From: Chrysopilus asiliformis
Taxonomy: Eukaryota > Arthropoda > Insecta > Diptera > Rhagionidae
Direction of reading: 5' to 3'
Length of the DNA stretch: 64,000 nt
Assembly: GCA_964034945.1 (NCBI GenBank)
Contig: OZ035960.1
Coordinates: 64,527,970 to 64,591,969 of the forward strand
Shown: piece after piece, positions 7,516 to 32,261 of the stretch
Layout of the letters: each line of letters opens with the position of its first letter
Position numbering within the stretch: position 1 is the first letter of the stretch
The notes under the pieces: model-generated
What the model was told of the DNA's origin: nothing
Database searches by the model: none
Seen by the model: the letters and a program-made list of their open reading frames with translations, nothing else
Program-made: the position numbers and the translations under genes

Positions 7516-7560
7516 CTAGGGGCTCCGCCCCGAACCGCTCCGCGGTTCATATCCGCCCCA
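7516..7560 (-). other. Helitron 3' terminus: GC hairpin plus CTAG
   Basis: Minus strand reads GGTTCGGGGCGGAGCCCC then TAG, followed by T of the target. The stem GGGGC/GCCCC sits directly against the CTAG end. Canonical Helitrons leave about 10 nt between hairpin and end, so the spacing is unusual. The copy at 51588-51610 differs by one base in the loop. Confidence 0.65.
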
Positions 7561-7726
7561 CGCATCGGCCTTCGGCCTCCGCGTCGACTTCTTCCTCGGC
7601 CTACGGCCTCGATTGCTAAATTTTCGTTCCAAAATTTTCGTTACAGTTGTAATTTTGACGATAAATAAAATTATTTTTGTTTTCATTATTTAAACATTTC
7701 TTTTAAATATAATTTTAAATGTAATA

Positions 7727-8207
7727 CAGTAGAACGCGCTTAAATGCAACAGGCGTAAATGCAAAACTCGTGTCATTGCACACAAAATTTGTGCATAGAA
7801 GATTTTTAAGCATTTTTCATATAAATATACACGGATAAATGAAACACGCTTAATTGCAATACTTGCTTAAATGCAACCACTTTCACATCCGCAAAAGTAT
7901 AAATTATATGAAATTTTACACGCTTAAATGCAGATGTGCAAAAATGAAATGTGATTACCCAAAAAAAAGTTATTATTATTTTAATTTGATAAAATGAATT
8001 CTTAATTAGATTCTTTGTTTTTGTGTAGCCTCGTTGAATTTAAATGTTTATTACAGGAATATTAAAGTTGCATGTTTATCTTTTACTCGCATAATTGCAC
8101 ATTAATGTGCATTTATCCGTGCTTCCGTGCTACGTATAAATGCAAAACGCGGATAAATGCACATAAAATTCTGCGAAATTCGATGTGCATTTAAGCGTGT
8201 TCTACTG
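7727..8207. mobile_element. pogo-type MITE in the Helitron 3' UTR
   Basis: TA duplications at 7725-7726 and 8208-8209 flank inverted ends CAGTAGAACRCGCTTAAATGC (first and last about 21 bp, with one or two mismatches). The body repeats AAATGCA and its complement many times. CAGT termini with TA duplication fit the pogo/Tigger branch of Tc1/mariner. No transposase is seen in 481 bp. Confidence 0.75.
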
Positions 8208-8427
8208 TAAAAATGAAATAAAAACTTATTGTAATGCTAGTTGTTTACGCACAGCTCGAGTAAACGTATAATCGGAACAGAAACAAATAAGAAACCAGCA
8301 CTTTTAATTGTAAAATATATTAACTTTATATTTTCAATTTTAATATATATATAATTCAATCAATTCTAAATCGTCAAAGTTGTTGAATGAAATGTTTGTA
8401 AATAATTAAATCCTTTACAATAATTCT

Positions 8428-9696
8428 TTCCTTCCGATGGCGCTACAGCCCGAAGCGAGCCTTGGCCTCCCTGATGCACCTCCTCCAGTTGTCTTGGTCT
8501 AACGCCTTCGACCTCCAGTTGGCGAAATTTAGGACTGCTCTGCAGTCTGCGTCGATTGAGTCCTCCCAGCGTTTTCGCGGTTTTCCTTTCGGCCGGTTTC
8601 CTTGAGCTCTGCCCCTTAGTACCCGTTTCGGTATTCTGCCGTCGTGCATTCTTTCGACATGGCCAGCCCATTGGAGTTTACGGAGCTTGATTGTGGTCGA
8701 CACGGGCGGGTCGTCGAATAGCTGGTATAATTCGTGATTGTATCGGAGTCGCCACGAGTTTCCTTCTTTCACCGGTCCATATATTTTTCGGAGGACCTTT
8801 CGCTCGAAATTGTCGAGAAGTCTTTCTAGGGACTGCGTTAGCGTCCACGTTTCGCATCCATATATCAGTACAGGACGAATTAATATTTTGTAGATGCGTT
8901 GCTTGTTGTTTTTGTGGACATTTTTAGACTTCAATACGGGAAGCACCGCATAGAGCGCCTTATTGGCAGCGGTGATCCTTTGCTGGATTTCGTGGCGTTC
9001 GGTGCATTCTTGACTGAGTAGGGCTCCCAGGTATACAAATTTATCTGCCTGCTCGAAATTATAATCGCCCATGGTTATGTTTTGCCTGCTCGGGGCAGCT
9101 TTTCGAGTTTGAGTCATGAATTTGGTTTTGATTTCGTTGACTCTGAGCCCTACTTCTCTCGCTGCTGACTCTAATTCCTGGAAAACTTCCTTCACACAAA
9201 GTGTTGATCGCGCGATGATATCTACGTCGTCTGCATACGCCACCAGTTGTGAAGATTTGACGAGTAGTGTACCTCCGGTATCCACTGAGGTAATCTTTCT
9301 GACGACATATTCTAGGGCCAAATTAAAGAGCATGGGGGCAAGACCATCTCCTTGTTTGAGACCTGTTTCCGTTGGGAAGCTTTGAGACAGCTCATTTTGA
9401 ATTTTAACTTGCAACTCAATGTTATGCATCGTGGCTTTAACTAGCCGTACTAGTTTCGGCGGCACTCCGAATTCGATCCGAGGCTGTGTCCTGGGTTCCT
9501 TGATATATTAGGTTTTCCGGGGAGACGTTATCAGCGCCTCGCCAAACCCCCAACCTGGAGGGCCAGTCTGGGTAACCATCCCGTTTAAAGCGCGGGATAC
9601 TCGCTTTCACCCTTCTCCGTCTGCTGTGTAAAAAGACACCCAGTGGTCACCACGAGGAGGTGGAGATAGGATTCGATAGCAGAGCTATAGGATTCG
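8428..9696 (-). mobile_element. RTE-like LINE deletion derivative
   Basis: Flanked by an 11-bp duplication ACAATAATTCT at 8417-8427 and 9697-9707, inside the BEL 3' LTR. The minus strand starts with a non-coding leader (9696 to about 9470, with CACTGGGTGTC and GAAAGCGAGTATCCC), then enters the RT in mid-domain, and ends right after the stop with a very short 3' end (TAGCGCCATCGGAAGGA). Both termini are kept while the endonuclease and RT N-terminus are missing, so this is an internal deletion rather than the usual 5' truncation. Confidence 0.7.
8443..9465 (-). pseudogene. RTE-like reverse transcriptase, C-terminal half
   Basis: 340 open codons. TGLKQGDGLAPMLFNLALE is the RT motif before the catalytic box, YADDVDIIAR (residues about 75-84) is the catalytic box, and the thumb follows (RPVLIYGCETWTL). 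The C-terminus WAGHVERM, RPKGKPRKRW and DNWRRCIREAK is typical of RTE-group and related insect endonuclease-RT proteins. The frame is intact to its stop at 8443, but the enzyme lacks the fingers and endonuclease, so it is non-functional alone. R4/Dong-type LINEs are the alternative. Confidence 0.8.
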
Positions 9697-9856
9697 ACAA
9701 TAATTCTAGTGACATTAATTCAAAGTTATAAAATTTGCGTTTAGTAATAATTCAATGATGATTTCAAATTCTGATGCGGAATCCAATATTGTTGCAATTC
9801 ACGGTACTGCGTTGATAGTAAAAAATGTGCCCAATACGGCTGGTTGGTTGATTGTA

Positions 9857-10310
9857 AAACAGCGGTTGACCAGGCAAGGCTGGTATGTTGGTCGCAAAAA
9901 CGACGGTTGGCTGCAAAAACAGCGGGTTGACCAGGCAAGGCTGGTATGTTGGTCGCAAAAACGACGGTTGGCTGCGAAAACAGCGGTTGACCAGTCAAAG
10001 CTGGTATGTTGGTCGCAAAAACGACGGTTGGCTGCGAAAACAGCGGTTGACCAGTCAAAGCTGGTAGGGTTGTCGCAAAAACGACGGTTGGCTGCGAAAA
10101 CAGCGGTTGACCAGTCAAAGGTGGTAGGTTTGTCGCAAAAACGACGGTTGGCTGCAAAAACAGCGGTTGACCAGTCAAAGCTGGTAGATTTGTCGCAAAA
10201 ACGATGGTTGGCTGCAAAAACAGCGGTTGACCAGTCAAAGCTGGTAGGTTTGTCGCAAAAACGACGGTTGGCTGCAAAAACAGCGGTTGACTAGTCAGAG
10301 CTGGTAGATC
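9857..10310. repeat. 60-bp minisatellite in the BEL LTR
   Basis: The unit contains CAGCGGTTGACCAGTCAAAG, a variable GGTAGGTTTGTCGC and AAAACGACGGTTGGCTGC. About 7.5 units start at 9857, 9918, 9979, 10039, 10099, 10159 and 10219. The period is 60 bp, with one 61-bp unit. Because 60 is a multiple of three, long repetitive frames stay open on both strands; these are by-products and not genes. The 5' LTR has one unit. Confidence 0.95.
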
Positions 10311-11360
10311 GGAATCCTTCCACAGCTGGATGAACTCTGATGGTGCTGAGTGTGTTACTCTGTTTTTATAGGCACTCTACCGGATGTGTTCGATCTTCTA
10401 GAAACATCTGACAGATCTCAGCACCTCTAAGTCAAAACCCTACAAATGTTTGATGTTTATTACTTTTGGATTTGACGTTTTAAGTTGGTTTGTGTTTTCC
10501 ATGATGATCCGAAAAGGTAAATTTTTTATGTTATTTTTGTAAATATCCTTTGGACTTTTCTAGGTTTTCCCGGTACATGGATAGAATTCGTTTTGGTAAG
10601 TTTGATCTTGATATTTACATATTTTTGATTTTAATTTTTATAATTTTATGTATTTTAGGTTAGGATCTTCCGGCGGTACGGAACATACTCCCCGCCTTGA
10701 AATATCGAAGAATTTCAATGAACACATGTTGCTATAGGTTGATATTAGTTATTTTTATGTAAATCGACCGTATTTTATGTATTTATGGTGTGTTCGACGG
10801 GCTAATCGGTCCAAATTTAGCTTTACAAGGTGTTAAATAAAAGCAATCAATTTTTTCCTTCTTTTGTTGTTTTTATTTCGACGATGCTCAACGTTTCGGT
10901 CACGATGGTGACCATCTTCAGGAGCCTTATATCTAAATACAATAAAAATCATCACAATGTGAAATATATAATGTTTGTTGTTACTTTGATTTAATGGTAC
11001 TTACAAATTATTTATTGGAAAAATTGCATGTCGCGTTTTTGTTATTTTCAGTGTAAAAAGACTTGAACGCTTATGTTCATAGGTCAGCAAAAAAAAAAAT
11101 AAAAAAAAATTTAAAAAATTTTTTTAAAAAAAGTTTTTATTAAAAAAGAATGCACTAAAAAGAAAAAAATAATTTTCTGGACGCTGTGTATCACAAATAT
11201 AAAAGCTTTTAAAAAGCGAAATAAAGCATAAAACAATAAACAATAAAAAAAAAATTTCTTTTTTTGTGTTATGCTTTATCTCGCTTTTTAAAAGCTTTTA
11301 TATTTGTGATACACAGCGTCCAGAAAATTATTTTTTTCTTTTTAGTGCATTCTTTTTTAA

Positions 11361-11598
11361 CACTAGATTGCCCAAGGAAGTCAAGCAGTCAAAATGACTG
11401 CTTTTGGCAATATAGGTATAACACATATATATATACCGGAATTGAAGGAGGGGGGAGGTAACTACAATTATTAATAAACGCATTTATATGTTGTACAAAA
11501 AGTCACAAAATTCTAACAAATTGTGTCATTATATACATAATTGTTTTTCTGAGTGAAATTAAAAAGCAGTCAAAATGACTTGCTTGGGCGATCTAGTG
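11361..11598. mobile_element. piggyBac-like MITE inside the hairpin arm
   Basis: TTAA at 11357-11360 and 11599-11602. Inverted ends CACTAGATTGCCCAAG and CTTGGGCGATCTAGTG, with an adjacent inner repeat AAGCAGTCAAAATGACT that is itself nearly palindromic. With the 238 bp and one TTAA removed, the right hairpin arm pairs with the left arm without a gap, which independently confirms the insertion. Confidence 0.85.
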
Positions 11599-11698
11599 TT
11601 AATAAAAGCTTTTTTAAAAAAAAAAATTTTTATTTTTTTTATTTTGTTCTTTTTAGTCTTCGAATATATATCCTTACATTTGAGATGTCCTTACAGGC

Positions 11699-12186
11699 TT
11701 TTTAACTTGAGAATCGTATTCAGCGACCCCAAAAACCCCCAGAATAGATTTTTTTCCGGAAAATTTGGAGAAAGGGATAATCACGTTATCCTTACAGGAC
11801 CTTCCGTTATCCTTACTGACTTTTTAATGACAGATTCGGATTCAGCGACCCCAAATACCCCCAGAATAGATTTTTTTCCGGAAAATTTGGAGAAAAGGAT
11901 AATCACGTTATCCTTACAGGACCTTCCGTTATCCTTACAGACTTTTTAATGACAGATTCGGATTCAGCGACCTCAAAAACCCCCAGAATAGATTTTTTTC
12001 CGGAAAATTTGGAGAAAAGGATAATCACGTTATCCTTACGGGACCTTCCGTTATCCTTACTGACTTTTTAATGACAGATTCGGATTCAGCGACCCCAAAA
12101 ACCCCCAGAATAGATTTTTTTCCGGAAAATTTGGAGAAAAGGATAATCACGTTATCCTTACAGGACCTTCCGTTATCCTTACAAGG
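11699..12186. repeat. four tandem 122-bp units
   Basis: Units begin with CTTTTTAA at 11698, 11820, 11942 and 12064 and contain GATTCGGATTCAGCGACC, CCCCAGAATAGA, TTCCGGAAAATTTGGAGA and CACGTTATCCTTACAGGACC. They are very similar; the first unit is the most diverged. Confidence 0.95.
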
Positions 12187-12623
12187 ACGAAGTAGTGAAA
12201 ATATTGTATTGTCATCGGACTTATATAAGTGTGCAAAATTTCAAGTCAATCGGACAAGTGGAAGTGGGTCAAAATTTGATTGCAAGATTTGACCCCGACA
12301 AACAAACAAGATAGCGAGCTAAATAAAAGCTTTTAAAAACATTAAGCACGTTGTAAACTTAACAACAAAAATGAATCGAAGATAATGAAAATAAATAAAC
12401 AATTATAATAAATTAAACACGACGTCACAATATGGCTAATTGAACTAAAAAAATATATTTTTGAAACCAGCTGATTGCTTAAATCACAGTGAGCACAATA
12501 ACAGTTTTTCTTTCTTAGTAGTGTTCACTCAGTCTCAGTATCGTATTCGTTTGTTGTCATCGTTGTGTTCGTCATCGTCAGAGGGAATTCTTTTCCTTTT
12601 GTTTTTATTTTCTATTTTGTCGT

Positions 12624-12655
12624 TTAAGAGAGCACAATATACAGCAGAGATGTGA
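12624..12655 (-). pseudogene. Penelope protein, last codons and stop
   Basis: Minus-strand codons ITSLLYIVLS and TAA (12626-12624) continue in frame the ...EILATQ that ends at the LINE's right-hand target duplication (24746-24739). This frame continuity across 12 kb is direct evidence that the LINE inserted into the Penelope coding region. Confidence 0.75.
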
Positions 12656-12663
12656 TCTGTGTC

Positions 12664-13156
12664 TCGTTTTATATTGTAAGTGTCTTCACTATATATGTGT
12701 AGGGCTTCGACAGTGAGTCTTTTGCTGTAGTTACTCTGTGTCTCGGGTGATCATGGCGACTGCTATGGGGGGGAATCGGCTGACTACTGTCAGCCCCGTA
12801 GTAGGATCGTCCCCCCACCGCAACTGGGCCGGTCATGTTTCGGGTAGTTGTGGGTGTGTGGGGCTGATAGTCGTAATGGGGCCCGCTCCATTACGATTCG
12901 CAAGTGCATGCGTTGCCTCCTCGTGGCGATCACCGGTAACTAGTATCTCTAGGCCAAAACGCAGCGCTAAAGGAGCAAACCTTGACAAAAAACCCCCAAT
13001 CCAAGGTGGAACAGCATATGCTGAGGGATGAATGGCTAGAGGGTTATCTAGTCGCGAATATGCGGACTCAGGATACCTGGCGATCTCCTGTTTTAATCAG
13101 CCTTACGCCCGTAAGGGAGCTCTGCGGGCGCGGACCTTCCCCTTCTCGCCTTACTC
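12664..13156 (+). other. LINE 5' UTR
   Basis: GC-rich leader between the target duplication and ORF1. It includes an open frame of 97 codons from ATG 12738 with no domain I recognise, most likely part of the untranslated leader that holds the internal promoter. There is no direct evidence for a promoter. Confidence 0.5.
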
Positions 13157-14554
13157 GTGGGACCAAGCATGAATCCTGAAACTAATACTTCTTGTAGTGA
13201 TGTCTTACACCCAACCCCCATCCCAACCCCCTCCACCCCTAATCCACCAAATCCCACTCCATCTTCCATCCCCCCAAAATCCCCAACTATACAGGGTAAT
13301 AAGGACACCCCTAAACCCTTCCCTTCACCGGCTTCATCTTTGACGTCTTCAATATCGCTGAGTGCGCTAAATTTCCGGGAACTTAGCAGTTCTCTGGATA
13401 GCCTGGACACTCTAGTGGAACTGGAGCCATCAGAGGTGAAGTACAGTGCTACTGAGAGTGCGCTGGAGACCGTCAAGTCTTCGGAAGATTCTCGTAGTGC
13501 GAATCCAGACCCGTCAGGAAGAAAGAAGTACGTCTTCTACAAATCTTCGCGACGGTATCTGGAAAAGATGAAGAAAACTGATCCCGCAGCCTTAAGCGCA
13601 AGAGATAAGGCTCTGATAGCAATGCACCGAAAGGTAGTTGCATCCTTTGAAAAAACCAAGGATTGCCTAATCGGAAGGTGAACCACCGCTCAGCCTGTCT
13701 CTTGAAGCGAAGGGCAAGTTGATAAAAACCGCAAACCCCCCTGCGCAGGAGGGGAGCGCGTCTAGTAGGAAAACAGGAGGCAATACCAGCAAGCAACAGG
13801 CGGTTGCAACAGCTAGGGCATCTGCCGGACCCTCAACCTCAACGGGAGCTAACGCCAGCACAGGCAAGAGCTCGGTTAAGACCAAGAGGGTGAGATCTCA
13901 GGGGGAGGAAACTGGCAACGAGCCGAAAAACAGAGAACATCTGCGAGCGTAGGCACTGCCGATGTGGGCACCCCCGACCATCTTAAAGTGGCCATCGTCG
14001 ATAACAGTGATCCTGATGGTAAGATCACATACGATCGGTGGCTACTCATAGAAGCCAAAATACTTGAAGCACTAGCCGGGGACCCCGAGAAAAGCATTCC
14101 TCCAGTCGGATGCACCTTCCACGGGGCCGGCTGGCTTAAAGGGGTCAAGGTGGTCATGTGCGACAGCGAGGAGTCCTTTAGCTTCCTCTCCAAAACCATC
14201 TCCAGTATAGGAGAACTTTGGGAAGGGGCCCAACTACAGGTCATCCCACGCAGTGCACTGCCGCTGAGACCCAAAGCTTGGATGTGGATTCCCCCACCGG
14301 AACTACCGGATGAATCCATATTGAGGATATTGGAGTCGCAGAACCCTGAAATCTCAGTCAAAGACTGGAAGATTTTAAAGTCCCTCAAAGGGGCTAAGGG
14401 TAACGGCAAGGACTACCAGATCCTATTGGATCAAAAGTCCAGCCTATCCCTTGGAAAGTCTTCTGGGACCATTCATTTTGGCCTGGGAACAGTCAGGGTG
14501 AGGTTGGAGGGTAACCATGTTGAGCCCGAAGCAGCTGTCAGTGGTGCAGATTAA
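13157..14554 (+). pseudogene. LINE ORF1 (gag-like, DUF4780-type), frameshifted
   Basis: Three frames together make one ORF1: 13157-13681 with a proline/serine/threonine-rich start and a basic RKKYVFYKSSRRYLEKMKK region; 13681-13952, Ala/Ser-rich; and 13964-14554 with the conserved globular part (GWLKGVKVVMCDSEESF, LWEGAQLQVIP, then SQNPEISVKDWKIL and a W). This is the domain found in ORF1 of several insect LINEs, presumed to bind the RNA. Breaks near 13680 and 13955 inactivate it. ORF2 starts at 14517, overlapping the ORF1 end. Confidence 0.75.
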
Positions 14555-15337
14555 TCTGTATCATTGTCAGGCGGCGACAGAGGATCTGGTGCTTACCATG
14601 GCAGAGGACGACATCGACGTGGCTTTAGTCCAGGAGCCCTGGTTAAACGGCAGTAACAAGATCCTTGGACTGACACCTAAAGGGTATGTATTACATTATA
14701 GTAAGACTGATGAAAAACTAAGGAGCTGCATCGTCGCCTAGAAAAACATTAATGCTTTCTTTTTAGGTAGCCTCTGCAGCGGAGATGTGTCGTCAATTTT
14801 ATTTGAGCAACGGAGAAGAGAGCAATCTCTGATCATTGCTTCAATTTACATGCCATACGAGGAAAGGGATCCACCAGGGAACAAGGTACGCAGTTTGGTG
14901 AGTTTTGCCAAAAACCGCCACCTAAACCTAGTGATGTGATGTGATGCCAACGCTCATTCATTAACAAAAACAGAGAAGAGGTAATCGACATAACACTCGC
15001 GACTAGCTACCAAGACTTGAGGCTTGACAATTGGAGAGTATCGCCCACGCACTCCTTTTCGGATTATGCTAGGATACTCTTCGGTATTACCTTCTCAAAG
15101 GAGGTACCTGCACACTACAGGAATGCTAGGAGAACTGACTGGAACAAATTCTCAGAGGAAATAAGGCGGGAGACCGTTGGTCCGACTGGACCCACACCTC
15201 TCACTGCTTCTTCCATTGAGAAAGTAGTAGGGAATATTAAGCACAAACTTACTCAAGCCTTTAACGCTTCCTGTCCGATAACACGCAGTACGAAAGGTAC
15301 GACCACACCATGGTGGAGTGGAGAGCTATGTAATGAA
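14517..15337 (+). pseudogene. LINE ORF2, endonuclease domain with internal deletions
   Basis: Begins SPKQLSVVQINLYHCQ and DIDVALVQEPWLN, the first endonuclease motifs, then breaks at 14741. Fragments continue in other frames: SLIIASIYMPYEERDPP, CDANAHS near 14945, then VIDITLAT and NWRVSPTHSFSDYARI near 15050, where the catalytic SDH-type site reads SDY. The segment between CDANAH and VIDITL is far too short, so 100 bp or more were deleted. The linker TTPWWSGELCNE ends at 15337, where another sequence is inserted. Confidence 0.75.
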
Positions 15338-15713
15338 TTTAAAGCTGGGAGCAGCAATTATGCTTTAATTCCATTCGAAGTAGCTAAAAAGCACAACTTC
15401 CTTAATCGATGGGAGCAGGCCTTAACTCCAGGTCTAAATAAGGCAAAAACTTTGTGATACTAAGACGGTCGTTTATTACACTCACTTTCTTTTATATCAT
15501 ATTAATGCTTATTTAGCTAAAGTGTATAATTATTAGTTAAGGTCTACTTTTGCTGATTCACATCAATTTGTTTACGCTCGCGATGGACTCGCGATCAAAA
15601 ATGTCGACGCAGATATTTCATACTAGCAGAGTGCATTGACACGCGTGCTACTTCATAAATTGATGTGAATCATTGTTTTGATTTCTTATGCATGTTAATT
15701 ATGCATATCACAG
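15338..15713. mobile_element. 376-bp insertion in the LINE ORF2 linker
   Basis: The LINE frame reads ...GELCNE to 15337 and resumes LRQLRKQTRKLFNKAKF at 15714, so the interval is extra DNA. It contains a small TIR unit (GATTCACATCAATTT at 15555-15569, inverted at 15657-15671). A target duplication is not apparent and no protein is recognised. It could be one MITE or an element with a nested MITE. Confidence 0.65.
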
Positions 15714-18173
15714 CTACGTCAACTGCGAAAACAGACTAGGAAACTGTTTAATAAGGCAAAGTTTACGAAGAACGAAGAAGCGTGGACCAATTACAAGGCC
15801 AGCTTCAATGAGTATAAAAAAGAGATTAGGAGGTCCAAGTGGACATCGTGGAAAGATTTCTGTTGCTCAATCGAGGAAACACAAGATGCTGCCAGACTCC
15901 GAAGGATCCTAAGTAGGACTCCTTCGGCCCCGGTGCTCCTGGAAAATCCAGATGGAGGCACAACGGAATCAAGCCAGGAAACACTGGACCTCCTAATGGA
16001 CACCCATTTCCCTATAGATTGTCAGAGCAGAGTTAGTAGATACTACGCTCCAGAAATAGGAACTTTCGGGTAGCAAAAGAAATAATTAATGAACGTTCGA
16101 TAGCGTGGGCAGTACATTCCTTCAGCCCCTACAAAGCGGCGGGCACGGATGGGATTATCCCGGCCATGCTTCAGAACGCGTTGCCTTTTATCAAATCTTG
16201 GTTGATAAAACTCTTTAGAGGTTGCTTGCTAGCCAGGTATATACCGGAGTGCTGGAGAGAAGTTCGTGTGGCATTCATCCCCAAGGCTGGGAAACGTTGT
16301 CACGTTAAACCAAAGGACTTCCGACCTATAAGTCTTTCATCGTTTTTACTAAAAACACTAGAAAGAGTTATTGATCTTAGCATTAAGAATTCCTTGGACA
16401 GCAGCTCAATATCTACGGCCCAACATGCCCACACTAAAGGCAAGTCTGTAGAGACAGCTCTGCACAAGGTGGTGCGAACTCTAGAGGAAACTGCCCACCA
16501 TAAGGAGTATGCCCTAGCAGCATTCCTGGACATTGAAGGTGCGTTTAATAACGTACATATAAGGTCTTTAGTGGGTGCACTTAGGGCACACAGTGTCGAC
16601 GAGATGCTAACTGAGTTGACAGAGCAGTTGCTCAACAGCAGAACAGTTTCGGCCACCATTGGTATAAGTAACGTAAAGAGAGCGATCAGTAGGGGAACAC
16701 CGCAGGGGGGGGGGATCCTATCTCCACTTCTGTGGAATCTAGCTCTGAACGAAATACTCCTATCGTTACAAGGAAAGGGAATAGAAGTTGTTGCGTACGC
16801 TGACGATGTGGTCGTTTTGGTAACAGGAAAATTTCTCCCAATACTAAGCGAACTCATGGAATCAGCATTACGCGATATCACAAAGTGGGTGGAGCGCAAT
16901 GGTCTTGGGGTTAACCCCTCCAAAACTGAACTAGTGCTCTTCACAAGAAAAAGGAAGGTGCCAACCTTACAACTTCCAAAGATAGGAACAACGCAACTCA
17001 GTCTCTCTCCTGAGGCGAAATACCTTGGTTTTATTCTGGACTCCAAACTTTCTTGGAAAAGGAATACGGAAGAGAGGATAAACAAAGCGTTGTGCGCGTT
17101 TTACGCATGTAAAAAAATGATTGGCAGGAATTGGGGCACATCACCGCGCATTACCCATTGGTTATACACATCGGTGATCAGACCCATTCTCACATACGGA
17201 TGTCTGGTTTGGTGGCCGACCATGAGGGTCAACTGCCGATATCAAACCCTTAACAAAGTACAAAGACTAGCGGCGCTAGGAATCACAGGAGCTGTTAGAT
17301 CAACACCAACAGCGGGAATGGAAGCTCTACTGCACCTCATTCCCCTGAATGAGTACACGAGATGTACGGCTGCCAAGAGTGCACTAAGGCTCAGAGAGTC
17401 CGGCCTCTGGAAGCACAGTACCTTCGGTCATAATAGCATCCTTAAAAGCGATGAATGGGGTATCCCGGACTCTACGGATTACTGTATCTCAGTTTTGATT
17501 CCTGAAAGGAGACTTTGGGATCTCGGCAGCGTCATAGACGAGCAAGAGGTCTCGGTTTACACGGATGGATCTAAGACTGGAGAAGGCACAGGGGCGGGAG
17601 TGTTCTCGGATAACCTTGACCTCCAAAGGAGCTACAAACTGCCTGATGAGAGCAGTGTATTTCAAGCTGAGGTCTACGCCATAAGTGCGGCTGCAAGCTT
17701 GATAATGACGAGACCGAAATGGCTATGGAGAGCGCGGATCGCTCGGTCGAAATGTCGATCGAATGCACAAAAAGTATAATCGATAGGAAAGGGGTGAACA
17801 ACATAAATATCCGTTGGCAAACAAGGAGCGATTGTGTAATCACAAGGTCGCCCTGGCCTAGATTTAATAGGAACAGAACCGACACCCTTCTGAGACTCAG
17901 CAGGACCTCCGTAAGGCTACTCACAGGCTTAATCACGGGGCACTGCCCCCTTGGCGCTATGGCCAGAAGGTGGCCGCAAATGATTTTTGCCGCAGTTGTG
18001 GTGACGGGGAGGAGCCGGAGACTGTGAAACACTTACTCTGTGAGTGTCCAGCCCTACAAGCACGCCGATATGGGACGCTTGGGGCCAGATTTTATAGTGG
18101 CCTGACGGAGCTTGGCAACCACCCACTCGAGGACATGCTGAGCTTCGTCAACAAGTCGGGCTGGTTCAAATAG
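15714..18173 (+). pseudogene. LINE ORF2, reverse transcriptase, RNase H and C-terminal zinc motif
   Basis: After a basic linker (15714-16060, with a break near 16070) the RT is open at 16166-17779 (537 codons). Motifs are VAFIPKAGK, FRPISLSSFLLKTLE, AAFLDIEGAFNNV, GTPQGGGILSPLLWNL and the catalytic YADDVVVLV (about residue 213). An RNase H follows with VYTDGSKTGEGTGAGV and the E-bearing FQAEVYAI. The frame is lost near 17730, probably with a deletion, and reopens to give FCRSCGDGEEPETVKHLLCE, a CCHC-type C-terminus typical of I/LOA/R1 elements, ending at 18173. RNase H separates it from Jockey/CR1. Confidence 0.85.
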
Positions 18174-18270
18174 GATCAGCTAGTTTGATGAAAGGTCTTA
18201 TGAGTACCGAAGACATCACAATGGGCCTGTAGGCCTCCGAGTGTAGCGCTGTGCTCACGCCTGGGCGCGC
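18174..18270 (+). other. LINE 3' UTR, left part
   Basis: Non-coding 3' sequence ending CACGCCTGGGCGCGC, where the errantivirus integrated. The remainder of the UTR, GGTCTTCTCAACCTAACC, is at 24712 onward. Confidence 0.75.
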
Positions 18271-18610
18271 GGGTTATATATCCGACGCCGACAGTAATTG
18301 AAGACAAAACAAAGGTTGTCGAAGGAATTTCCATAGAAAATGGACCACCGACGCAAAGAACAAGTAGAGTTTTCTAGGAAAACTGATTAGAAGAGAAAAA
18401 TGCATCTTATGCATTTTTCAAGATAAATCTTTGTCTTCGTGCATCATAGAAGTTAAGCATTAAGTTAGTTGATTGTAAATCGCCGAGCTATAACCATTCC
18501 GCTTTCAATAAAGTATATTAAAGAATTAAACTGTGTTTTTTTATATATTATAATCAACAGTAGTTCAAAGTTGATTTTTTTTAATAAAGAAACCGTGTGA
18601 AATTATAATT
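18271..18610 (+). repeat. errantivirus 5' LTR
   Basis: Starts at GG(G)TTATATATCC and ends ...ATTATAATT, with a polyadenylation-like TTCAATAAAG near 18508. The exact first base is ambiguous within GGG because the duplicated CGCGCGG overlaps it. Confidence 0.85.
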
Positions 18611-18628
18611 GGCGCAGTCGGTAGGATC
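18610..18628 (+). other. errantivirus primer-binding site
   Basis: TGGCGCAGTCGGTAGGAT directly follows the LTR. Complementary in type to the tRNA-Ser 3' end used by related fly elements. Confidence 0.8.
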
Positions 18629-23012: not shown

Positions 23013-24474
23013 AGAGTTAGGATATATAAAAATTAAGCTTCATGATGTCGAAATAGTTAATGAAACAAACATAATTTTACATATTATTAATCCCAATGAA
23101 ATTTCTAATATTTTAACAAAAATTGAAGAAAACGTTAAGCAAGTAGACTTCGACAATAAAAATCTAATAGAAGAAGAAATTAAAACTATCAGAGCAAAAA
23201 TTAAGTCGATCATACCTAAAATAAATAGGAAGAAAAGAGGTTTATTAAATTTTGTAGGATTAGCTTCAAAATGGTTATTTGGTACAATGGACGATTACGA
23301 CAGACAAGATATACTAGAACATTTAAATACGCTTGAATATAATGACAGAAATGCTATTAGTACATTAAACCAACAAATTTCAATAAATTCACATTTTAAC
23401 GAAACAATAAATATGATAAAAGAAGCAATATATAATGACAGAAATAAAATAATAAAAGCAAATAATGAATTTGTTAAAGTTAACAAAGAAATTTTAAATC
23501 ATGCTCAATATTTAGATTATATAATAAAATTAAGATATTTAGAAAATAAGGTAAATCAAATACAAGATAATATAGCTTCAGCTAAATATAATATGATACA
23601 TCCAAGTTTATTAACTGCAGAAGAATTGGAAACTTTTAAAATAGATTTTTTTAAACTAAAACTGATAAAAATGGGAGTTATTGAATACAAAGATCAGTCG
23701 ATAATTTTAGCAATTAAGATTCCGAAAAATTATTTGAAAACAGAATTAAAATTAATTATGCCATTACCCAATACAGATAGTTTTGAAATTATGGATAAGA
23801 AGGAATATATTGTTGTAATTAATAATAAAACTTATACATATAAAGAAAACACTATACTAAACGATTTGAAAATCAGTAAAAATTGTATTTGGAAGAATTC
23901 ATGCAAATTGAAATATAATAATGAAACAAGAATTGAAGTATTAGATGAAGAAACATTATTAGTAATAAATGCTATAGACGAAAAACTAGTTCAAAATTGT
24001 GATGATAGGAATATATCCCTAAATAAAAATTATTTGATTATATTTAATGATTGTGAAATGAAACTTATGCAGGAAACATTTTATAACAAAAAGGAAGTTA
24101 TTCATGAAAAATATTTCTACCAAAATGAAAAAATTAATCAATCATTCATAAAAACTTTAACATTCGATAATATTGCAATTAAGCATTTTGATAACATAAA
24201 GCAAATAGAAGAGCTGCAAAAACATAAAATTGTATCTTACGGAATTAATATAATAATTTTCATAATTGTAATTATATTAATAATCATTATATTTTGTATA
24301 TGCAAAAAGACAAAGATTGAATTTTTAAACAAAAGAATTCAGGAGAATTCTTACTCTTACCGGGGAGGGGTTATATATCCGACGCCGACAGTAATTGAAG
24401 ACAAAACAAAGGTTGTCGAAGGAATTTCCATAGAAAATGGACCACCGACGCAAAGAACAAGTAGAGTTTTCTAG
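22945..24474 (+). CDS. env: errantivirus Env (F-type glycoprotein)
   Basis: 509 codons in the frame overlapping the end of pol. A hydrophobic start (MLLLVMPAMPATQALL) could act as a signal peptide. A furin-type RKKR at about residue 96 is followed by a GLLNFVG fusion-peptide-like stretch. A membrane segment of mostly Ile/Val lies at about 432-452, with a short cytoplasmic tail whose last 35 codons are inside the 3' LTR. This matches errantiviral Env, related to baculovirus F proteins. In this group Env is usually made from a spliced RNA, so the first exon may lie upstream. No break is seen. Confidence 0.88.
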   Translation: MLLLVMPAMPATQALLQINPIYEELGYIKIKLHDVEIVNETNIILHIINPNEISNILTKIEENVKQVDFDNKNLIEEEIKTIRAKIKSIIPKINRKKRGLLNFVGLASKWLFGTMDDYDRQDILEHLNTLEYNDRNAISTLNQQISINSHFNETINMIKEAIYNDRNKIIKANNEFVKVNKEILNHAQYLDYIIKLRYLENKVNQIQDNIASAKYNMIHPSLLTAEELETFKIDFFKLKLIKMGVIEYKDQSIILAIKIPKNYLKTELKLIMPLPNTDSFEIMDKKEYIVVINNKTYTYKENTILNDLKISKNCIWKNSCKLKYNNETRIEVLDEETLLVINAIDEKLVQNCDDRNISLNKNYLIIFNDCEMKLMQETFYNKKEVIHEKYFYQNEKINQSFIKTLTFDNIAIKHFDNIKQIEELQKHKIVSYGINIIIFIIVIILIIIIFCICKKTKIEFLNKRIQENSYSYRGGVIYPTPTVIEDKTKVVEGISIENGPPTQRTSRVF

Positions 24475-24707
24475 GAAAACTGATTAGAAGAGAAAAATGC
24501 ATCTTATGCATTTTTCAAGATAAATCTTTGTCTTCGTGCATCATAGAAGTTAAGCATTAAGTTAGTTGATTGTAAATCGCCGAGCTATAACCATTCCGCT
24601 TTCAATAAAGTATATTAAAGAATTAAACTGTGTTTTTTTATATATTATAATCAACAGTAGTTCAAAGTTGATTTTTTTTAATAAAGAAACCGTGTGAAAT
24701 TATAATT
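24368..24707 (+). repeat. errantivirus 3' LTR
   Basis: Preceded by a purine tract CGGGGAGGGG (24361-24370) that blends into the LTR start. No difference from the 5' LTR was noticed by eye. The env stop at 24472-24474 lies inside it. Confidence 0.85.
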
Positions 24708-24738
24708 CGCGCGGTCTTCTCAACCTAACCTAACCTAC
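24708..24738 (+). other. LINE 3' tail with AACCT repeats
   Basis: CGCGCGGTCTTCTC followed by (AACCT) repeats and AC, directly before the LINE's right target duplication. The tail matches the insect-type telomere repeat (TTAGG)n on the opposite strand. Confidence 0.75.
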
Positions 24739-24895
24739 TCTGTGTCGCTAAAATTTCTGTCTTTTCAAAATCTGGTTCATGTCCATGTGTTTTGTAATGT
24801 TCAACTAAGGCTGTGTGTGGTATGTCATCGGGTATTTTCTTTTCTCTTGTTCTCTTTAAGTCGTTTATGTGGTTACCAATTCAACATACCCCCCA

Positions 24896-25716
24896 ATTCT
24901 ACTTTAAATATTTTAGTCTTTTAACCTTTTAACGCAGCTTAAAAGGAAATTAAAAGATTTCGCATTCTACTTAAAAGGTTATAAGATTGTCAAAAACAGC
25001 TGATCTTTTAACTGGTGTGGTGAAAATTGTTATAAGATTTTAAGGCCATTAGGTATTCTACAATTAAGGTTAAAAGACATTTCTAACCTAAAAATTCTTT
25101 TACGTTATAAGGTGATCTGAAGGTGCTTAAATAGCTACTCAATTTCATTTTCATTCATTTAATCTAAAAAATTGAACGTGTTTTGCTTGCAGCAATTCTG
25201 AACGAGGTAGAGAATTTGATTGATAGAAGATCTAGGAAGTGAGTAACATTTTAATTTGTTCAGTTTTGTCATAATACGAGTACATGCATTAAAATTTATT
25301 TTTAGTCAAATCGAAAGGATAACCAACAGACGTTTGAGAGATGTTATGGATCCATTCTCGGTATCAGAGAATTTGTTTCGCAAGTCTTATCGAATGCCAC
25401 AAGAATTGGCTTTAAAACTAATTCAATGTTTGGAGCCTTTTAACAATAATTTAAACAGTCAAATACCATTTCACATCCGAAATATTCCATAATTAAATAA
25501 TTTTTTTGGTATTTTGTTTGCGCGCAAACAGAAGATTTCACTTGAGAAATGTCATTTCGCAGGTATTGCCAGAGCGTAAAAATAATTACCCTCTTTTAAC
25601 ATTTTAGTCTCAATTTTCACCACAAACATTTAAAGTAGAATAGCAATTCTTTTTAATCCCTTATAAACTTTTGACTTAAAAGTTTATAAGATCTTTTAGA
25701 ATATTTAAAGTAGAAT
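24896..25716. mobile_element. Harbinger remnant inside the Penelope endonuclease
   Basis: Ends are inverted repeats ATTCTACTTTAAATATT.TA (24896-24915 and 25697-25716). Repeats of the type CTTTTAACCTTTTAA/CTTATAAACTTTT lie just inside both ends. It carries the N-terminal exons of a Harbinger-like nuclease. The target duplication is not clear, and the host codons missing around it suggest a deletion at insertion or later. Confidence 0.7.
25187..25492 (+). pseudogene. Harbinger/HARBI1-like nuclease N-terminus, spliced, truncated
   Basis: An exon (about 25187-25238) reads AILNEVENLIDRRSR. A GTGAGT donor at 25239 and TTTTTAG acceptor at 25315 define a 77-bp intron. Exon 2 (25316-25492) reads RRLRDVMDPFSVSENLFRKS, RMPQELALKLIQCLEP and SQIPFHIRN, the N-terminal layout of HARBI1-like proteins. 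The frame stops before the catalytic region. It is only about 30% similar in style to the copy at 6324, so a different family. Confidence 0.65.
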
Positions 25717-25990
25717 CGAGGGGATAGTTTAGGTTGCACTTTATGTTATTTTCTCTGTTTCCTTTGCATGGAATCTTATAAATTACATTTGTTTGTTTTA
25801 ATTTAGGTATAGGGTCTTTTAATTTACTATATATATCGCGTAATGTTGTTTTGTTTCTGTATGCTAACATTGTATTTTCTGTGTGTTCTTTTAATGTTTT
25901 AGTTATTCTTTCTGTAACATCTTTGACATAAGTTATGCTCCTATAGATATAGGTGTCATTACTTCTATCAATTTGTGTAAGTCACGGCAT

Positions 25991-26257
25991 ACAGACAACC
26001 AAGGTATGCTGTAAACTCAAATCTGACATTTCGTTGCTACGTCACTTGTGCCGATTAGTTCGTCAAGTGCAGAAGGAATTTTGTATTCTGGATGGTTTTT
26101 TTTAAATTTGTGCGATCTAAATAAGATATTTGTAAATTAGTGGACTGATTGCATTAAATAGTGATCAATAAACATAAAAATTAATTAAAAAAAAGTCGGC
26201 ACAAATGACGTCACACCTGACTATCAAAAGTTTACAGCATACCTTGGTTGTCTCTGT
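25991..26257. mobile_element. 267-bp TIR element in the Penelope protein
   Basis: Near-perfect inverted ends of about 27 bp (ACAGACAACCAAGGTATGCT at 25991, complement ending at 26257 with two extra bases), flanked by Penelope codons on both sides. The centre is AT-rich and non-coding. No superfamily is assigned. Confidence 0.75.
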
Positions 26258-26970
26258 GGAGTTTTATCGTTGTTGCTTCTAGTTCTTTGCAATTTGGTAA
26301 TTAGTTTTTCCGGGTAATTATTTTCAAGTAGTATATTTTTAAGTATTTTTTTGTTTTTAAGGTGGAATTTGGGTGAACTAAGTGTAAGGACTGTTTTTAT
26401 GAATTGTTTTGCTGTGTTTATTTTTTGTGATTCAGGGTGGTTGGATAGGTAATTGAGTATGCGGTTCGAAGTGATTGCTTTTTGGTGCCAATCTGTGTCG
26501 ATGGTGTTGTTATGATTTCTAATACATGTGACATTAAGATATGGCAGTTTGTTGTTATGTTCAATTTCGTGTGTGAATTGGATTTTTGGGTGAAAGGAAT
26601 TTAATTTTAGTAGGGTTTGATCTATTTTATTTTTTGGGATAATCGCAAATATATCGTCTACATATTTTACAAAAAGTTTGGGTATAAATTGTAAGTCTGT
26701 AAGTATACTATCTAGCAAATTTTGGGTGACTATATCTGCAATTATAGAAGACAAAGGGTTACCCATTGGGATACCATATATTTGTCTGTAAAATGTGTTG
26801 TTACAGGTGAAGAAATTTGTGTCTATTAAGCAGAACTTCAAAAGTTGCATAAAAATATTTTTTGGTGTATTTGTTCTAGTAGTAATGGTTTCCCATTTTT
26901 TACTAATGATGTTGATGGCCAAGTCTACAGGGATGCTAGTGAATAATGAAACAACATCAAAACTAACCAT
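26258..26970 (-). pseudogene. Penelope reverse transcriptase core
   Basis: Begins MVSFDVVSLFTSIPVD, the catalytic-Asp motif, followed by YGIPMGNPLSSIIADI and the second catalytic box YVDDIFAI at 26664-26653. Then come LPYLNV and the thumb with LNYLSNHPESQK. Penelope RTs are related to telomerase and use an attached endonuclease for target-primed reverse transcription. The frame is lost where a 267-bp TIR element interrupts it at 26257. Confidence 0.9.
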
Positions 26971-26990
26971 TGTTTCTGTTTCATCGATTG

Positions 26991-28195
26991 TTATGTTAGA
27001 AATCTTGTTTTTTCAAATGCGTTATTTATGTTGTATTTATCATTTTGAGTGACTGATTTTAGGCAATAAGCTATCATTTTAGACATGTATGAACCGGGTG
27101 TGTTTATGGTTGATACTATTGGTCTTAAGGGGATATTTTGTTTATGAATTTTTGGCAATGCATATAGTTTCGGCGCAGTGGTGTTATATTTGGTTAACTG
27201 GTTTTTCTCATGTATGTTAATTAGTTTGTTATTATAAAGTAATCTACTAAAGTAGTTATTTCTGTTTTGGAGTTTTGTTGTAGGGTCTTCTTTCAGTTCC
27301 AGATAGGTGTTCTTATCCTGTAATAAGGAGTTTATTTTTTTGGTGTAGTCTGTTTTGTACATCAATACCACGGATTTTCCTTTATCACTAGAAGTAACAA
27401 TGATATTTTTATTTTTACTTAGAAAAAGTTTGGCGTCTTTAAAAATTCGTTTTATAATAGTGTTTATCGTTTGTTGTTTTTGACTAAGCTTTATACTCTG
27501 GTTATTGGATACAATGTTTGCAATTTTTGTTCTAACTATTTCTTTGGTCGTTAATTGTTTTTATGATTTCCTCAACATCAGCGATTATGTCAAACAGTGG
27601 AAACTCTTTGTTATTAGGTGGGGGTGCAAATTTTGGTCACAGAGATAGCAACCACATAATTTCTTTAGGAACAGGATTGTCAGTTAAATTGGTGAAACAA
27701 TTATTGTCAAGTTTTAAATTTAATTTTTTAAGTAACTGTGTGTATAGAATGTCAAATTTGTTGTCATGTGTCATGTTATGTGTTTTAAATATTTTGTCAA
27801 AGGTACGTTTTTGAGTAGTCAGAAATTCATCAGCTACATGTGATGGAAATTCTCGTAAAATCTGTTCTTGTAGTGTATAAAGTTTCTCGTTTGCATTGAA
27901 AGTGAGGGAACATTTTTGTTTTATAATGATGTTCAATAATTTTTTATGGAAATTATATATGATGTTTTCTATGTTGTTATTGTACTTACTGTCATTTATT
28001 ACAAATTTTTTTATGTTGTTTGTGCTATTTTTTAAGAAATTTGGAATGATTGTGTGTTTTCTGCATTTTAATAGGAAGTTTCTGCTAGTTTGTAGTTTAG
28101 CTGTTACTTTTACTTGTTTGGCATATTCTTTGAGTAGTTGTGTTTTGTTCTTTCCGTATTGTATTAGTGTTTGGGTGTATATTGTGCTCTCTTAA
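26991..28195 (-). pseudogene. Penelope protein, N-terminal region and RT fingers
   Basis: The minus strand is open from about 28195 without an ATG (a stop lies just upstream), as if translation started in a spliced leader. Visible are a KLQTSRNFLLKC then IPNFL segment and, at 27680-27640, NLTDNPVPKEIMWLL. After a frameshift near 27630 and a second break near 27550 the frame resumes at 27371 with PKLYALPKIHK and LRPIVSTINTPGSY, the first conserved RT motifs of Penelope proteins. It ends at 26991 by another frameshift. At least three breaks make it a pseudogene. Confidence 0.8.
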
Positions 28196-28801
28196 ACGAC
28201 AAAATAGAAAATAAAAACAAAAGGAAAAGAATTCCCTCTGACGATGACGAACACAACGATGACAACAAACGAATACGATACTGAGACTGAGTGAACACTA
28301 CTAAGAAAGAAAAACTGTTATTGTGCTCACTGTGATTTAAGCAATCAGCTGGTTTCAAAAATATATTTTTTTAGTTCAATTAGCCATATTGTGACGTCGT
28401 GTTTAATTTATTATAATTGTTTATTTATTTTCATTATCTTCGATTCATTTTTGTTGTTAAGTTTACAACGTGCTTAATGTTTTTATTTTTATTTTTGCTG
28501 ACCTATGAACATAAGCGTTCAAGTCTTTTTACACTGAAAATAACATAAACGCGACATGCAATTTTTCCAATAAATAATTTGTAAGTACCATTAAATCAAA
28601 GTAACAACAAACATTATATATTTCACATTGTGAGGATTTTTATTGTATTTAGATATAAGGCTCCTGAAGATGGTCACCATCGTGACCGAAACGTTGAGCA
28701 TCGTCGAAATAAAAACAACAAAAGAAGGAAAAAATTGATTGCTTTTATTTAACACCTTGTAAAGCTAAATTTGGACCGATTAGCCCGTCGAACACACCAT
28801 A
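28190..28801 (-). repeat. Penelope terminal pLTR, right copy
   Basis: About 610 bp, uninterrupted, inverted relative to 10785-12650. Only scattered differences are seen by eye. It contains the leader from which the Penelope protein would be expressed. A 64-codon frame shared by both copies (28358-28164 and 12461-12655) looks like a by-product of the repeat. Confidence 0.8.
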
Positions 28802-28805
28802 GATA

Positions 28806-30418
28806 TTAGTTATGTTGATTGATATGAATTAATTTGTTGTTCATTAATTTTAATTTTATTATTCCGAATGGTGTTTTGAATTTAAATTTGACTCGGTTTA
28901 ATTTTAGGACCTTCTTCCTGTCGAAGTTGATAACGGCCTGGATGGTATCTTCGGGAACTTTGGAATCTCTGCACGATGTTGATGGAAGATTTGGTGATGG
29001 TTCTGATTTGCAATTTCGTTTTAATTTGTCATCAATGTGACAATGAAGTGCTTGGACCTGATATCGTTTGTTTACGGACTTTGCGGAATTTGTATCGGAA
29101 TTGGTTTCTACATTAACCAAAGCTGTGGCGAGTAAAGTCTGAGCGGATTGATGTTGTGATGTGAGTGCGGTGACTTCACTAGTTGATGGTGTGGAGTCTG
29201 ATGTAGAAGAACCAAATGCGTCTATATGTATAAGGGTATGATGACGCTGATCACAAATGAAGCACCTTTTTTTGTCTGAACAATTGGCCAACTTGTGACT
29301 GTTTGATAAACAATTTCGGCATAATTTCAATTTTTCCACCTCTTCCAATCGTTTTTTGGAGTTTAATTGCTTGAATCTAAGACACTGATTCGATGAATGG
29401 GTCCCTTGACAAAACACGCATTTGTAATTTTGATTGGTAGATATGAATGACTGTTTTGTCTTTGGATTAAACTCGCTTTTAGATATCGTAGCCTTTCGAT
29501 ACTCAACTGCTTCCAATGTCCTGAATCTAGTTTCGAGAAATGTTTTGAGCTCATTGAAATTTGGGAGCGTTGTTTTTTGTGTTAATGATTGTTCCCATAA
29601 CACAAGAGAATCAGGATGTAACTTTTGAGTGATTAAGTATATTAATATTGGATCCCAATCTGTCATGCTCACACCAAGGTTTTTTAATGCTACTAAGCTC
29701 TCATTAGTTGTATCTAAGAGTTTTTTTTATTATTTTCGGCAGTGTCAGATGCAATGTTTGGCTGTGAGAATAGTCTTTTTAATTCTGTGAAAATTAAAAC
29801 TCTTTTGTTGTTGTATCGAGATTGTAACACGTTCCAAGGTAACATATAATTTGTGTCTGTAGTTTGATAATGGCTGATTAAGTTAGCTGCTTCTCCGCGT
29901 ACACTGGCCTTTAAATAATGTAATTTTTCTACGTTGCTAAGTTTACTTGTATGTATTAGTGATTGGAATAAATCATGGAATGTTACCCAATCAGAATAAT
30001 TACCAGAGAAGTTTGGTAAACTGATTCTTGGAAGTTTGACTGTGTTAGAGTTTGCATTTGTATTTTCTACGAGAGTTTGGTTAGTGAGCTCAGGGGTCAC
30101 TAGTGGTATTTTAAGTTCTTCTAGTTCAGAGCAAAATGATGTGTAAAGTTCCTCGATTGTAAAATAAATATCTTTTTTAAAATATTCATCGTCTTTGTAA
30201 TTTTTTGGACGGCAAGTATAAAGTTTTCGATTATTTGCCTTGAACTCGATCCAATACTCATTCAAACAGAAAAATTTTTTGTTGATGTAGGCGAGAGATG
30301 TGCGTGTAGCTGAATCTTTCTTGAAATTTCGTTTCAGATTAGTGATTTGTTCAGCGAGCATGTCCTGATGGACTAAAATCTCCTCATATGGAGTGAGAGT
30401 TGTGTCTTCTTCACTCAT
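28806..30418 (-). pseudogene. gag: BEL/Pao Gag of the pol-less element, one frameshift
   Basis: 30418-29714 (ATG at 30418) carries the N-terminal helical part and the conserved capsid region (LPRISLPNFSGNYSDWVTFH, then LHYLKASVRGEAANLI and RYNNKR) typical of BEL Gag. The frame shifts at an A-run near 29690-29713 and continues 29672-28806 with two zinc motifs (CVFCQGTHSSNQC and CRNCLSNSHKLANC) and a third CFICDQRHH. The protein ends at a TAA two codons before the Penelope insertion, with no protease or RT after it. Confidence 0.85.
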
Positions 30419-30486
30419 GATTGCAAATCGTATGCAACTTTGGATTGAATTGATTGATAATTTACTAAGTTTGTTTTATTTGTTTC

Positions 30487-30508
30487 TATCCGGCTCGAAG
30501 GACCAAAA
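30487..30508 (-). other. BEL primer-binding site
   Basis: Minus strand TTTTGGTCCTTCGAGCCGG immediately after the LTR end GTAAACA. This is a primer-site type common in BEL/Pao elements. Confidence 0.75.
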
Positions 30509-30926
30509 TGTTTACGCACAGCTCGAGTAAACGTATAATCGGAACAGAAACAAATAAGAAACCAGCACATTTAATTGTAAAATATATTAACTTTATATTT
30601 TCAATTTTAATATATATATAATTCAATCAATTCTAAATCGTCAAAGTTGTTGAATGAAATGTTTGTAAATAATTAAATCCTTTAGAATAATTCTAGTGAC
30701 ATTAATTCAAAGTTATAAAATTTGCGTTTAGTAATAATTCAATGATGATTTCAAATTCTGATGCGGAATCCAATATTGTTGCAATTCACGGTACTGCGTT
30801 GATAGTAAAAAATGTGCCCAATACGGCTGGTTGGTTGATTGTAAAACAGCGGTTGACCAGGCAAGGCTGGTATGTTGGTCGCAAAAACGACGGTTTTAGG
30901 TTAGGATCTTCCGGCGGTACGGAACA
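30509..30926 (-). repeat. 5' LTR of the gag-only BEL element
   Basis: 418 bp, from TGTTCCGTACC (30926) to GCGTAAACA (30509) on the minus strand. Relative to the 3' LTR it has a deletion that removes all but one minisatellite unit and the adjoining 350 bp (junction at CGACGG/TTTTAGG, 30893). Confidence 0.85.
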
Positions 30927-30931
30927 CTAGT

Positions 30932-31448
30932 GGATAGACAACATTCTTTGTCCTGCTGTGTGGAGCGTAAATGAACAGATCTTTTGGTTTGCCAACGCGT
31001 GAGCATGCTACATACAGCTGTCCATGGGCAAAACATGGATTTTTCAAGTTAATTCCACAAACTTGTAGCGACTGGCCTTGCGCTTTATTGGGCGCGTTTA
31101 TTCCGGTGTTAAGATGGCACTGCCAATCTGCAGGGATTTTGCTGCATTTTCTCTGCGGAACTCATCGCAAACAGTGCGAAATACAAAATGTCACAATTCT
31201 GAGGTTAAAACAGCACTGCCAGAATATAATTCCGTTCATACCGCCTGAAAATAGCAGCGCTAAAAATTAACAGTGCCAAAAACCTACTGCTCAACTGGCA
31301 GGCATTGCTAAAGTAAAATGCGTTTAGACCGGCGCTACATTGAAAAAACTGCCACTTTAGCACCGGTATAAACGCGCCCATTGATTGTCATGGCAAATGC
31401 CAGTCGTACTGGAAACTGCAACCGTTTGAATTGGAATGGTATATCAGT
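30932..31448 (-). pseudogene. Helitron helicase (PIF1-like), C-terminal motifs, split by a MITE
   Basis: Minus-strand codons give FKRLQFPVRLAFAMTIN up to 31383. After a 290-bp TIR element they give KAQGQSLQV, NLKNPCFAH and GQLYVACSRVG down to 30932. These are the last superfamily-1 helicase motifs of Rep-helicase proteins, which drive rolling-circle transposition. The fragment ends at the BEL insertion and its last few codons and stop are at 8240-8226. The Rep nuclease domain and upstream helicase motifs are not in the window, so the copy is dead. Confidence 0.9.
31090..31379. mobile_element. 290-bp TIR element in the Helitron helicase
   Basis: Inverted ends GGGCGCGTTTATWCCGGTG (about 30 bp, few mismatches) with ATT at 31087-31089 and 31380-31382. 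Removing the element and one ATT restores the helicase frame between ...MTIN and KAQG. Internal GCACTGCCA-type motifs recur on both strands. A 3-bp duplication suggests a Harbinger-like relative, but the ends are not diagnostic. Confidence 0.8.
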
Positions 31449-31496
31449 GGGCATGAATCAAACACAATTGATTGTATTTGATTCATGATCAGTGGG
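31443..31496. repeat. 36-bp palindrome flanked by a 9-bp duplication
   Basis: ATCAGTGGG at 31443-31451 and 31488-31496 flanks a 36-bp near-palindrome (31452-31487, 16 of 18 positions pair). It sits in the Helitron helicase frame just upstream of the conserved ITDIPFQF-like region. Confidence 0.7.
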
Positions 31497-31499
31497 TAT

Positions 31500-32231: not shown

Positions 32232-32261
32232 CAAAAAGACAAACATTAATTTATATATATA

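Follow-up and report, generated by a model that had tools for sequence, protein, structure and literature searches.

How many transposable elements lie nested within one another, and in what order did they land? This question is raised by a 64,000-nucleotide stretch of DNA from the fly Chrysopilus asiliformis, here called the window, which covers positions 64527970-64591969 in the mid-part of the 117-Mb contig OZ035960.1 (assembly GCA_964034945.1, 429 Mb in 42 contigs). A sequence-only reading had proposed a five-level nest at window positions 7516-31499, made up, from the outside in, of a Helitron, a BEL element, a Penelope-like element, a long interspersed nuclear element (LINE) and an errantivirus. 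We conclude that the locus consists of six transposable elements stacked inside a likely seventh, and that it was very probably built up by a series of independent transpositions, in which every newcomer entered the element that had arrived just before it. The five named elements are present and nested in the proposed order; the depth is at least six levels and probably seven, two enclosing layers having been missed. In the following, layers are numbered from the outermost (1) to the innermost (7).

Each junction was mapped, and other copies of each host element without the insert were then sought in the same genome. Genome match counts are lower bounds that include the window's own match, and sites were sampled among them: 11 copies were fetched from at least 41 matches for the Helitron, 11 from at least 84 for the LINE, 7 from at least 150 for the Penelope-like element, 3 from at least 137 for the BEL gag and 15 from at least 40 for layer 2. 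Unbroken sites were found in this genome for five insertion steps; the sixth, outermost step is one that we infer. Because copies with undisturbed sites survive in the same genome for the five steps, the order of landing can be read directly, and the nesting order is taken to be the landing order. By base composition, an exact match at a given position would arise by chance with a probability of 0.0014 for 5 bp, 2.6e-5 for 8 bp and 1.3e-7 for 12 bp.

The Helitron (layer 3, 7516-33477, minus strand) was delimited by its 3′ CTAG end, its 5′ side and unbroken target sites. The 3′ end at 7516 was common to all 11 fetched copies (L009-L019), in each of which the CTAG lies behind the hairpin GGGGCGGAGCCCC, and in 10 of the 11 a host T follows. 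The right limit of 31499 given by the sequence-only reading was rejected, as this position is the start of a minisatellite inside the element: the Helitron family carries two minisatellites (tandem repeats, 31499-32229), and since the second was matched in 9 of the 11 copies, the DNA beyond 31499 belongs to the Helitron. On the 5′ side, 8 of the 11 copies also match the DNA from 33169 on, and five of these eight, in which the 5′ side was located, end as the window does, AAAGA/T (a TC end). With a 13-bp repeat of the element's own 5′ end counted in, the right limit lies at about 33477, and end-to-end distances in the copies are 1951-3182 bp, partly extrapolated. The Helitron was classed as non-autonomous because only a helicase-like C-terminal fragment was found, by eye, with no Rep and helicase gene and no significant Pfam helicase match. 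Its target, AAGTTACTAGGCG, was kept in 14 of the 15 fetched copies of the surrounding layer 2 element (L059 with two extra bases; L061 and L062 read directly from printed sequence) and was not found in L068. With the site unbroken in these 14 copies and nothing doubled in the window, the Helitron inserted without target duplication.

The next element, a BEL/Pao retrotransposon (layer 4, 8242-30926, minus strand), has long terminal repeats (LTRs) at 8242-10685, including an insert, and at 30509-30926, the second being gapped by 744 bp against the first; their termini are TGTT..AACA. The duplication CTAGT, already recognised from the sequence, flanks it at 8237-8241 and 30927-30931, and all 11 Helitron copies run from the equivalent of window position 8241 (8240 in L010) straight to 30927 with a single CTAGT. 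In agreement with the earlier proposal, the Helitron frame rejoins across the BEL element to a stop codon, KNVVYP being followed by LALQ and the stop. The BEL gag is of the DUF1759 type (PF03564, E value 7.2e-24) and has at least 137 genome matches, some of its relatives lying in open frames of up to 1767 amino acids at 82% identity. No pol was present: the polypurine tract and the LTR come immediately after the end of gag in the window and in all three fetched relatives. Loss of pol through the nesting of this copy was rejected, since the three relatives are without it too.

Inside the BEL element lies the Penelope-like element (layer 5, 10753-28801, minus strand), which has inverted terminal repeats and an RVT_1 match (E value 6.6e-7) of 29.7 bits, barely above the cut-off of 29.6. 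From its layout we take it to be probably Penelope-like; a putative GIY-YIG endonuclease was recognised by eye. The proposed 12-bp duplication was found at both junctions as GATATTAGTTAT (10741-10752 and 28802-28813), its sole two plus-strand occurrences in the window, and the BEL gag stop codon falls inside these 12 bases. As relatives for this site we used the three gag matches that lie elsewhere in the genome, show an identity of 90% or more and extend to the final residue. All three are unbroken: L055 and L056 read CATAACTAATAGCAACC uninterrupted, and L054 has a diverged form of it.

The LINE (layer 6, 12743-24738, plus strand) is a degenerate copy with a reverse transcriptase (RT) and a short (AACCT)n tail (DUF4780, E value 7.1e-30; RVT_1, E value 6.1e-35). 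It is without LTRs, and copies of its family carry AACC-type repeat tails. The 8-bp duplication claimed for it does flank the element, as TCTGTGTC; with two bases that it has in common with the tail, it would read ACTCTGTGTC. This octamer occurs four times on the plus strand of the window, and the left copy is the one at 12735-12742, the right one lying at 24739-24746. A start at 12664, with the left copy at 12656-12663, was rejected by the uninterrupted Penelope copies; as Penelope sequence extends up to 12742 in the window, the span of the LINE is 12743-24738. Among the seven Penelope copies fetched, L023, L024 and L027 run through TTACTCTGTGTCGCTAAAA, L026 does so two bases short, and L029, which is related at 74%, is uninterrupted at the site though diverged; L025 does not reach it and L028 was not read there. 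The joined Penelope flanks translate as EILATQ/SNYSKR, in agreement with the frame of the uninterrupted L023 and with the rejoining proposed earlier.

The innermost element, an errantivirus (layer 7, 18272-24707, plus strand), has 339-bp LTRs (18272-18610 and 24369-24707) around three open frames (18820-19824, 19878-23012 and 22945-24474), in the layout gag-pol-env. Protease, RT, ribonuclease H and integrase domains were found together with a Baculo_F-type envelope (E value 8.1e-7); gag was assigned by position only and has no Pfam match. The envelope has 62 relatives, the named ones only from the flies Hermetia illucens and Musca autumnalis. All 11 fetched LINE copies read CCTGGG(CG)4GTCTTC at the empty site, and the window has GGG(CG)3 before the element and (CG)3G after it. 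The CGCGCG pointed out earlier is common to both sides; a 6-bp duplication was nevertheless rejected, as the uninterrupted LINE copies have (CG)4, and twelve bases minus eight leave a 4-bp duplication at the palindromic target CGCG. Preferred errantivirus targets are TATA, CGCG and ATAT according to a review (PMC5408687). Uninterrupted sites thus exist for all four steps of the order first proposed, the empty-site check that had been suggested for related strains or species having been run within one genome.

The ages of the two LTR elements fit this order. Leaving aside the inserted RT fragment and the 744-bp length difference, the two BEL LTRs show 2 differences in 420 positions, or 0.24% per lineage (95% interval 0.03-0.86%). 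The LTR dating suggested for the errantivirus gave 0 differences in 339, with an upper bound of 0.44%. By these values the inner layers look recent. The LINE of the window deviates at 79 of 2484 positions at which ten copies agree (L035 excluded); it also contains several stops, along with deletions of roughly 0.1 and 0.2 kb. Between its RT frame and that of L031 there are 44 changes, 29 synonymous and 15 non-synonymous, where random change would be 74% non-synonymous (P = 3e-8). This synonymous excess indicates that most of the divergence predates the insertion and arose in a functional lineage. The deletions and stops might be accounted for by copying in trans of an already defective LINE, or else by a conversion event that made the two BEL LTRs alike.

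Two further elements enclose the Helitron. Layer 2 is a 404-bp inverted-repeat element (6714-33719; pieces 6714-6764, 7440-7515 and 33478-33719). All of the at least 40 scored genome matches end at 33719, the 15 fetched copies are mostly 402-405 bp long, and the copy in the window is flanked by TTA on both sides. Layer 1, likely an enclosing transposon, would be an internally deleted Harbinger-like element (6137-34499, plus strand), with inverted ends that match at 23 of 27 positions. Its putative N-terminal transposase frame (6480-6713) has at least 121 genome matches, gives no Harbinger match in Pfam, and resumes at 33720, remaining open across layer 2. The relatives L044 and L045 keep the frame through the layer 2 insertion point, and their frames are longer.

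Several observations weigh against the full sequence of seven arrivals. The Helitron has G/T as neighbours here, not the usual A/T. Other layer 2 copies show no consistent duplication, so that TTA, which would suit the 3-bp TWA target duplication of PIF/Harbinger elements, was rejected as a trait of the family, and four of the copies (L058, L061, L064 and L066) are not independent because they have a flank in common. From the young BEL LTRs a less degenerate LINE would be expected. No unbroken copy of layer 1's own family was seen and no duplication could be made out at its ends, which are identical at just 23 of 27 positions, and the copy L043 lacks a matching right end. The points on layer 1 favour an account with six layers only, in which the match between the inverted ends (6137 and 34499) is a coincidence and the 404-bp element lies within a Harbinger fragment that has no ends. 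However, L043 aligns to both flanks of the 27-kb insert in the same order and on the same strand, and the frame reads on across layer 2. We regard six layers as unlikely, though worth keeping in mind, and retain the likely seventh.

The locus might act as a self-feeding insertion trap in mid-chromosome DNA, in which newcomers hit the newest arrival, four inner layers accumulated while the BEL LTRs gained only two differences, and an already defective LINE was copied in by the machinery of intact relatives; we hold this to be a doubtful idea. A joint move of several layers, in which an inner pair already nested elsewhere would have been carried in by an outer element or a segmental duplication, is a good deal harder to sustain. 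Transfer of nests is discussed for D. melanogaster (PMC1794594), but here a separate duplication or clean junction marks every step, and the next layer was found at the same place in none of the fetched host-element copies, which are part of the matches. Finally, an assembly chimaera joining unrelated repeat copies at some junctions would be conceivable in repeat-rich DNA known from assembled sequence alone, where assembly error can occur, but it is highly improbable given the exact duplications at the junctions, the frames that run on across them and a joined sequence predicted base by base from the unbroken sites.

Under successive independent insertion, the 404-bp element would have landed in the transposase frame of the Harbinger-like transposon. 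The later steps are shown by junctions and unbroken sites: the 404-bp element received the Helitron, without a duplication. The gag-only BEL element entered the Helitron with a 5-bp duplication, and the Penelope-like element the BEL element at its gag stop codon with a 12-bp duplication. The LINE went into the end of the Penelope frame (8 bp, or 10 if the two tail-shared bases count), and the errantivirus into the (CG)4 tract of the LINE (4 bp). The gag-only BEL and the Helitron, in which only a helicase fragment was seen, presumably needed proteins from relatives, and each layer probably offered the next a target in which an insertion does the host little harm. We see no sign of selection for the stack, and every component is of an already known kind.

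Side insertions had been reported in four layers. Real ones, absent from other copies, were found in layer 2, the Helitron, the BEL element, the Penelope-like element (three) and the LINE. By contrast, two inserts in the Helitron, a pogo-like inverted-repeat insert (7725-8209, 24-nt inverted ends) and a miniature inverted-repeat transposable element (MITE) in the helicase fragment (31089-31380, 31-nt inverted ends), are inherited within the Helitron family and are not side inserts of the nest, because they lie within unbroken alignments with all 11 fetched Helitron copies. The layer 2 insert (6765-7439) has inverted ends CAGCGGTATTGTGATT and is missing in the aligned layer 2 copies. In the Helitron, 32253-33168 has 32-nt inverted, pogo-like ends and is unmatched in the other fetched loci. 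The left BEL LTR carries an RT fragment (8428-9698, minus strand; RVT_1, E value 4.2e-16) with AATAATTCT on either side. Near the 5′ end of this fragment (9611-9681, minus strand) there is a match to the hepatitis delta virus-like ribozyme drz-agam-1, at 34.7 bits against a gathering score of 37. All microRNA-family matches were below their gathering scores and are plain hairpins.

One side insert in the Penelope-like element (11106-12333) contains a hairpin and 122-bp tandem repeats; it is missing in L023, with a 6-base overlap at the site, and L026 has a related copy. It holds a piggyBac-like MITE (11361-11598) with TTAA on both sides, whose site is unbroken in L026 with a 4-base overlap. 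The other two, both with inverted ends, are 24883-25723, where L023 has 31 bases instead, and 25983-26255, missing in L023. Near-perfect long hairpins lie at 36759-36910 and 11140-11360, with 73-nt arms (93%) and 101-nt arms (97%), respectively. A 385-bp insert in the LINE (15329-15713) is missing in 10 of 11 LINE copies, those that align there, and 24 of the at least 84 LINE matches sit in a 1212-amino-acid open frame. The tails of the LINE copies L031-L041 differ, with AACCT, AACCC or AACC repeats; we presume a resemblance to insect telomere repeats. A MITE in layer 1 (33821-33983) was recognised from its 25-nt inverted ends (96%) alone.

The terminal repeats of the Penelope-like element, compared over window positions 10780-28805, are inverted in the window and direct in L023 and L024. 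Its inverted arms (pseudo-LTRs, pLTRs) differ at 4 of 636 positions. Within a copy the repeats differ at 0-1 of 209 positions in L023 and L024 and at 2 of 208 in the window, and between the window and these copies at 11-14 of 209. Several Penelope RT matches occur in the genome list as inverted pairs, 1-3 kb apart. A hammerhead-like core (CUGAAGA, a stem, GAAA) was noticed by eye in the terminal repeats at 28628-28712, with an inverted copy near 10880. A shorter piece of it folds with a z of -2.07, and no hammerhead match was obtained in Rfam. Compared with the Penelope-like elements of PMC11167929, the element shares the RT frame between pLTR copies and, by eye, the hammerhead-like core; it differs in the inverted orientation of its pLTRs and in the missing Rfam match.

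Other layers also have known counterparts. The errantivirus resembles those described in PMC5408687 in its LTRs, gag-pol-env and CGCG target, and no tested feature differs. The Helitron, like the tandem-repeat-bearing ones of PMC9659126, is non-autonomous and spreads tandem repeats, and it additionally has a helicase fragment and two inherited inverted-repeat inserts. For nesting itself, the D. melanogaster Release 4 survey lists 294 nests, 263 of one step, 25 of two and 6 of three (PMC1794594). Serial insertion among different classes, most often pericentromeric, is common to both; those nests reach at most three steps, against six here (five shown); deeper nests may be in print elsewhere. 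In the Brassica nigra centromeres (PMC7419231), young elements are likewise stacked in repeat-rich chromosome regions, but those 262 events mostly involve two LTR elements, often of one family, whereas different classes are involved here.

Further elements surround the nest. One, at 34498-36032, adjoins layer 1 at its right end and has inverted ends of 33 columns, 32 of them matching and one a gap. Two more Harbinger-like exons (50456-50605 and 50695-50781), the first with a DDE_Tnp_4 match below the cut-off (E value 0.0035), belong to layer 1 or to another copy. A second BEL/Pao element (38929-47044) has Peptidase_A17, DUF1759 and a Baculo_F-type envelope; of its left LTR, only the final 55 bp are present. 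An LTR of 55 bp was rejected, as the right LTR seems, by eye, to begin near 46652; the left one is therefore read as truncated. A Gypsy-type LTR element (52085-62342) has gag and pol frames and 2.2-kb LTRs that are 99.77% identical.

Nested insertions give relative ages without a clock. Here they do so in a stack of probably seven layers that arose through different transposition mechanisms, and for five of the steps unbroken sites elsewhere in this genome served as the check. Such a stack makes a good internal calibration, since nesting order, LTR clocks and the divergence of families can be set side by side at a single locus; in this case they agree for the two LTR elements and fit less well for the LINE. 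Its depth exceeds that of every nest in the D. melanogaster Release 4 survey, a hint that insect genomes assembled from long reads contain deeper nests than the older catalogues list.

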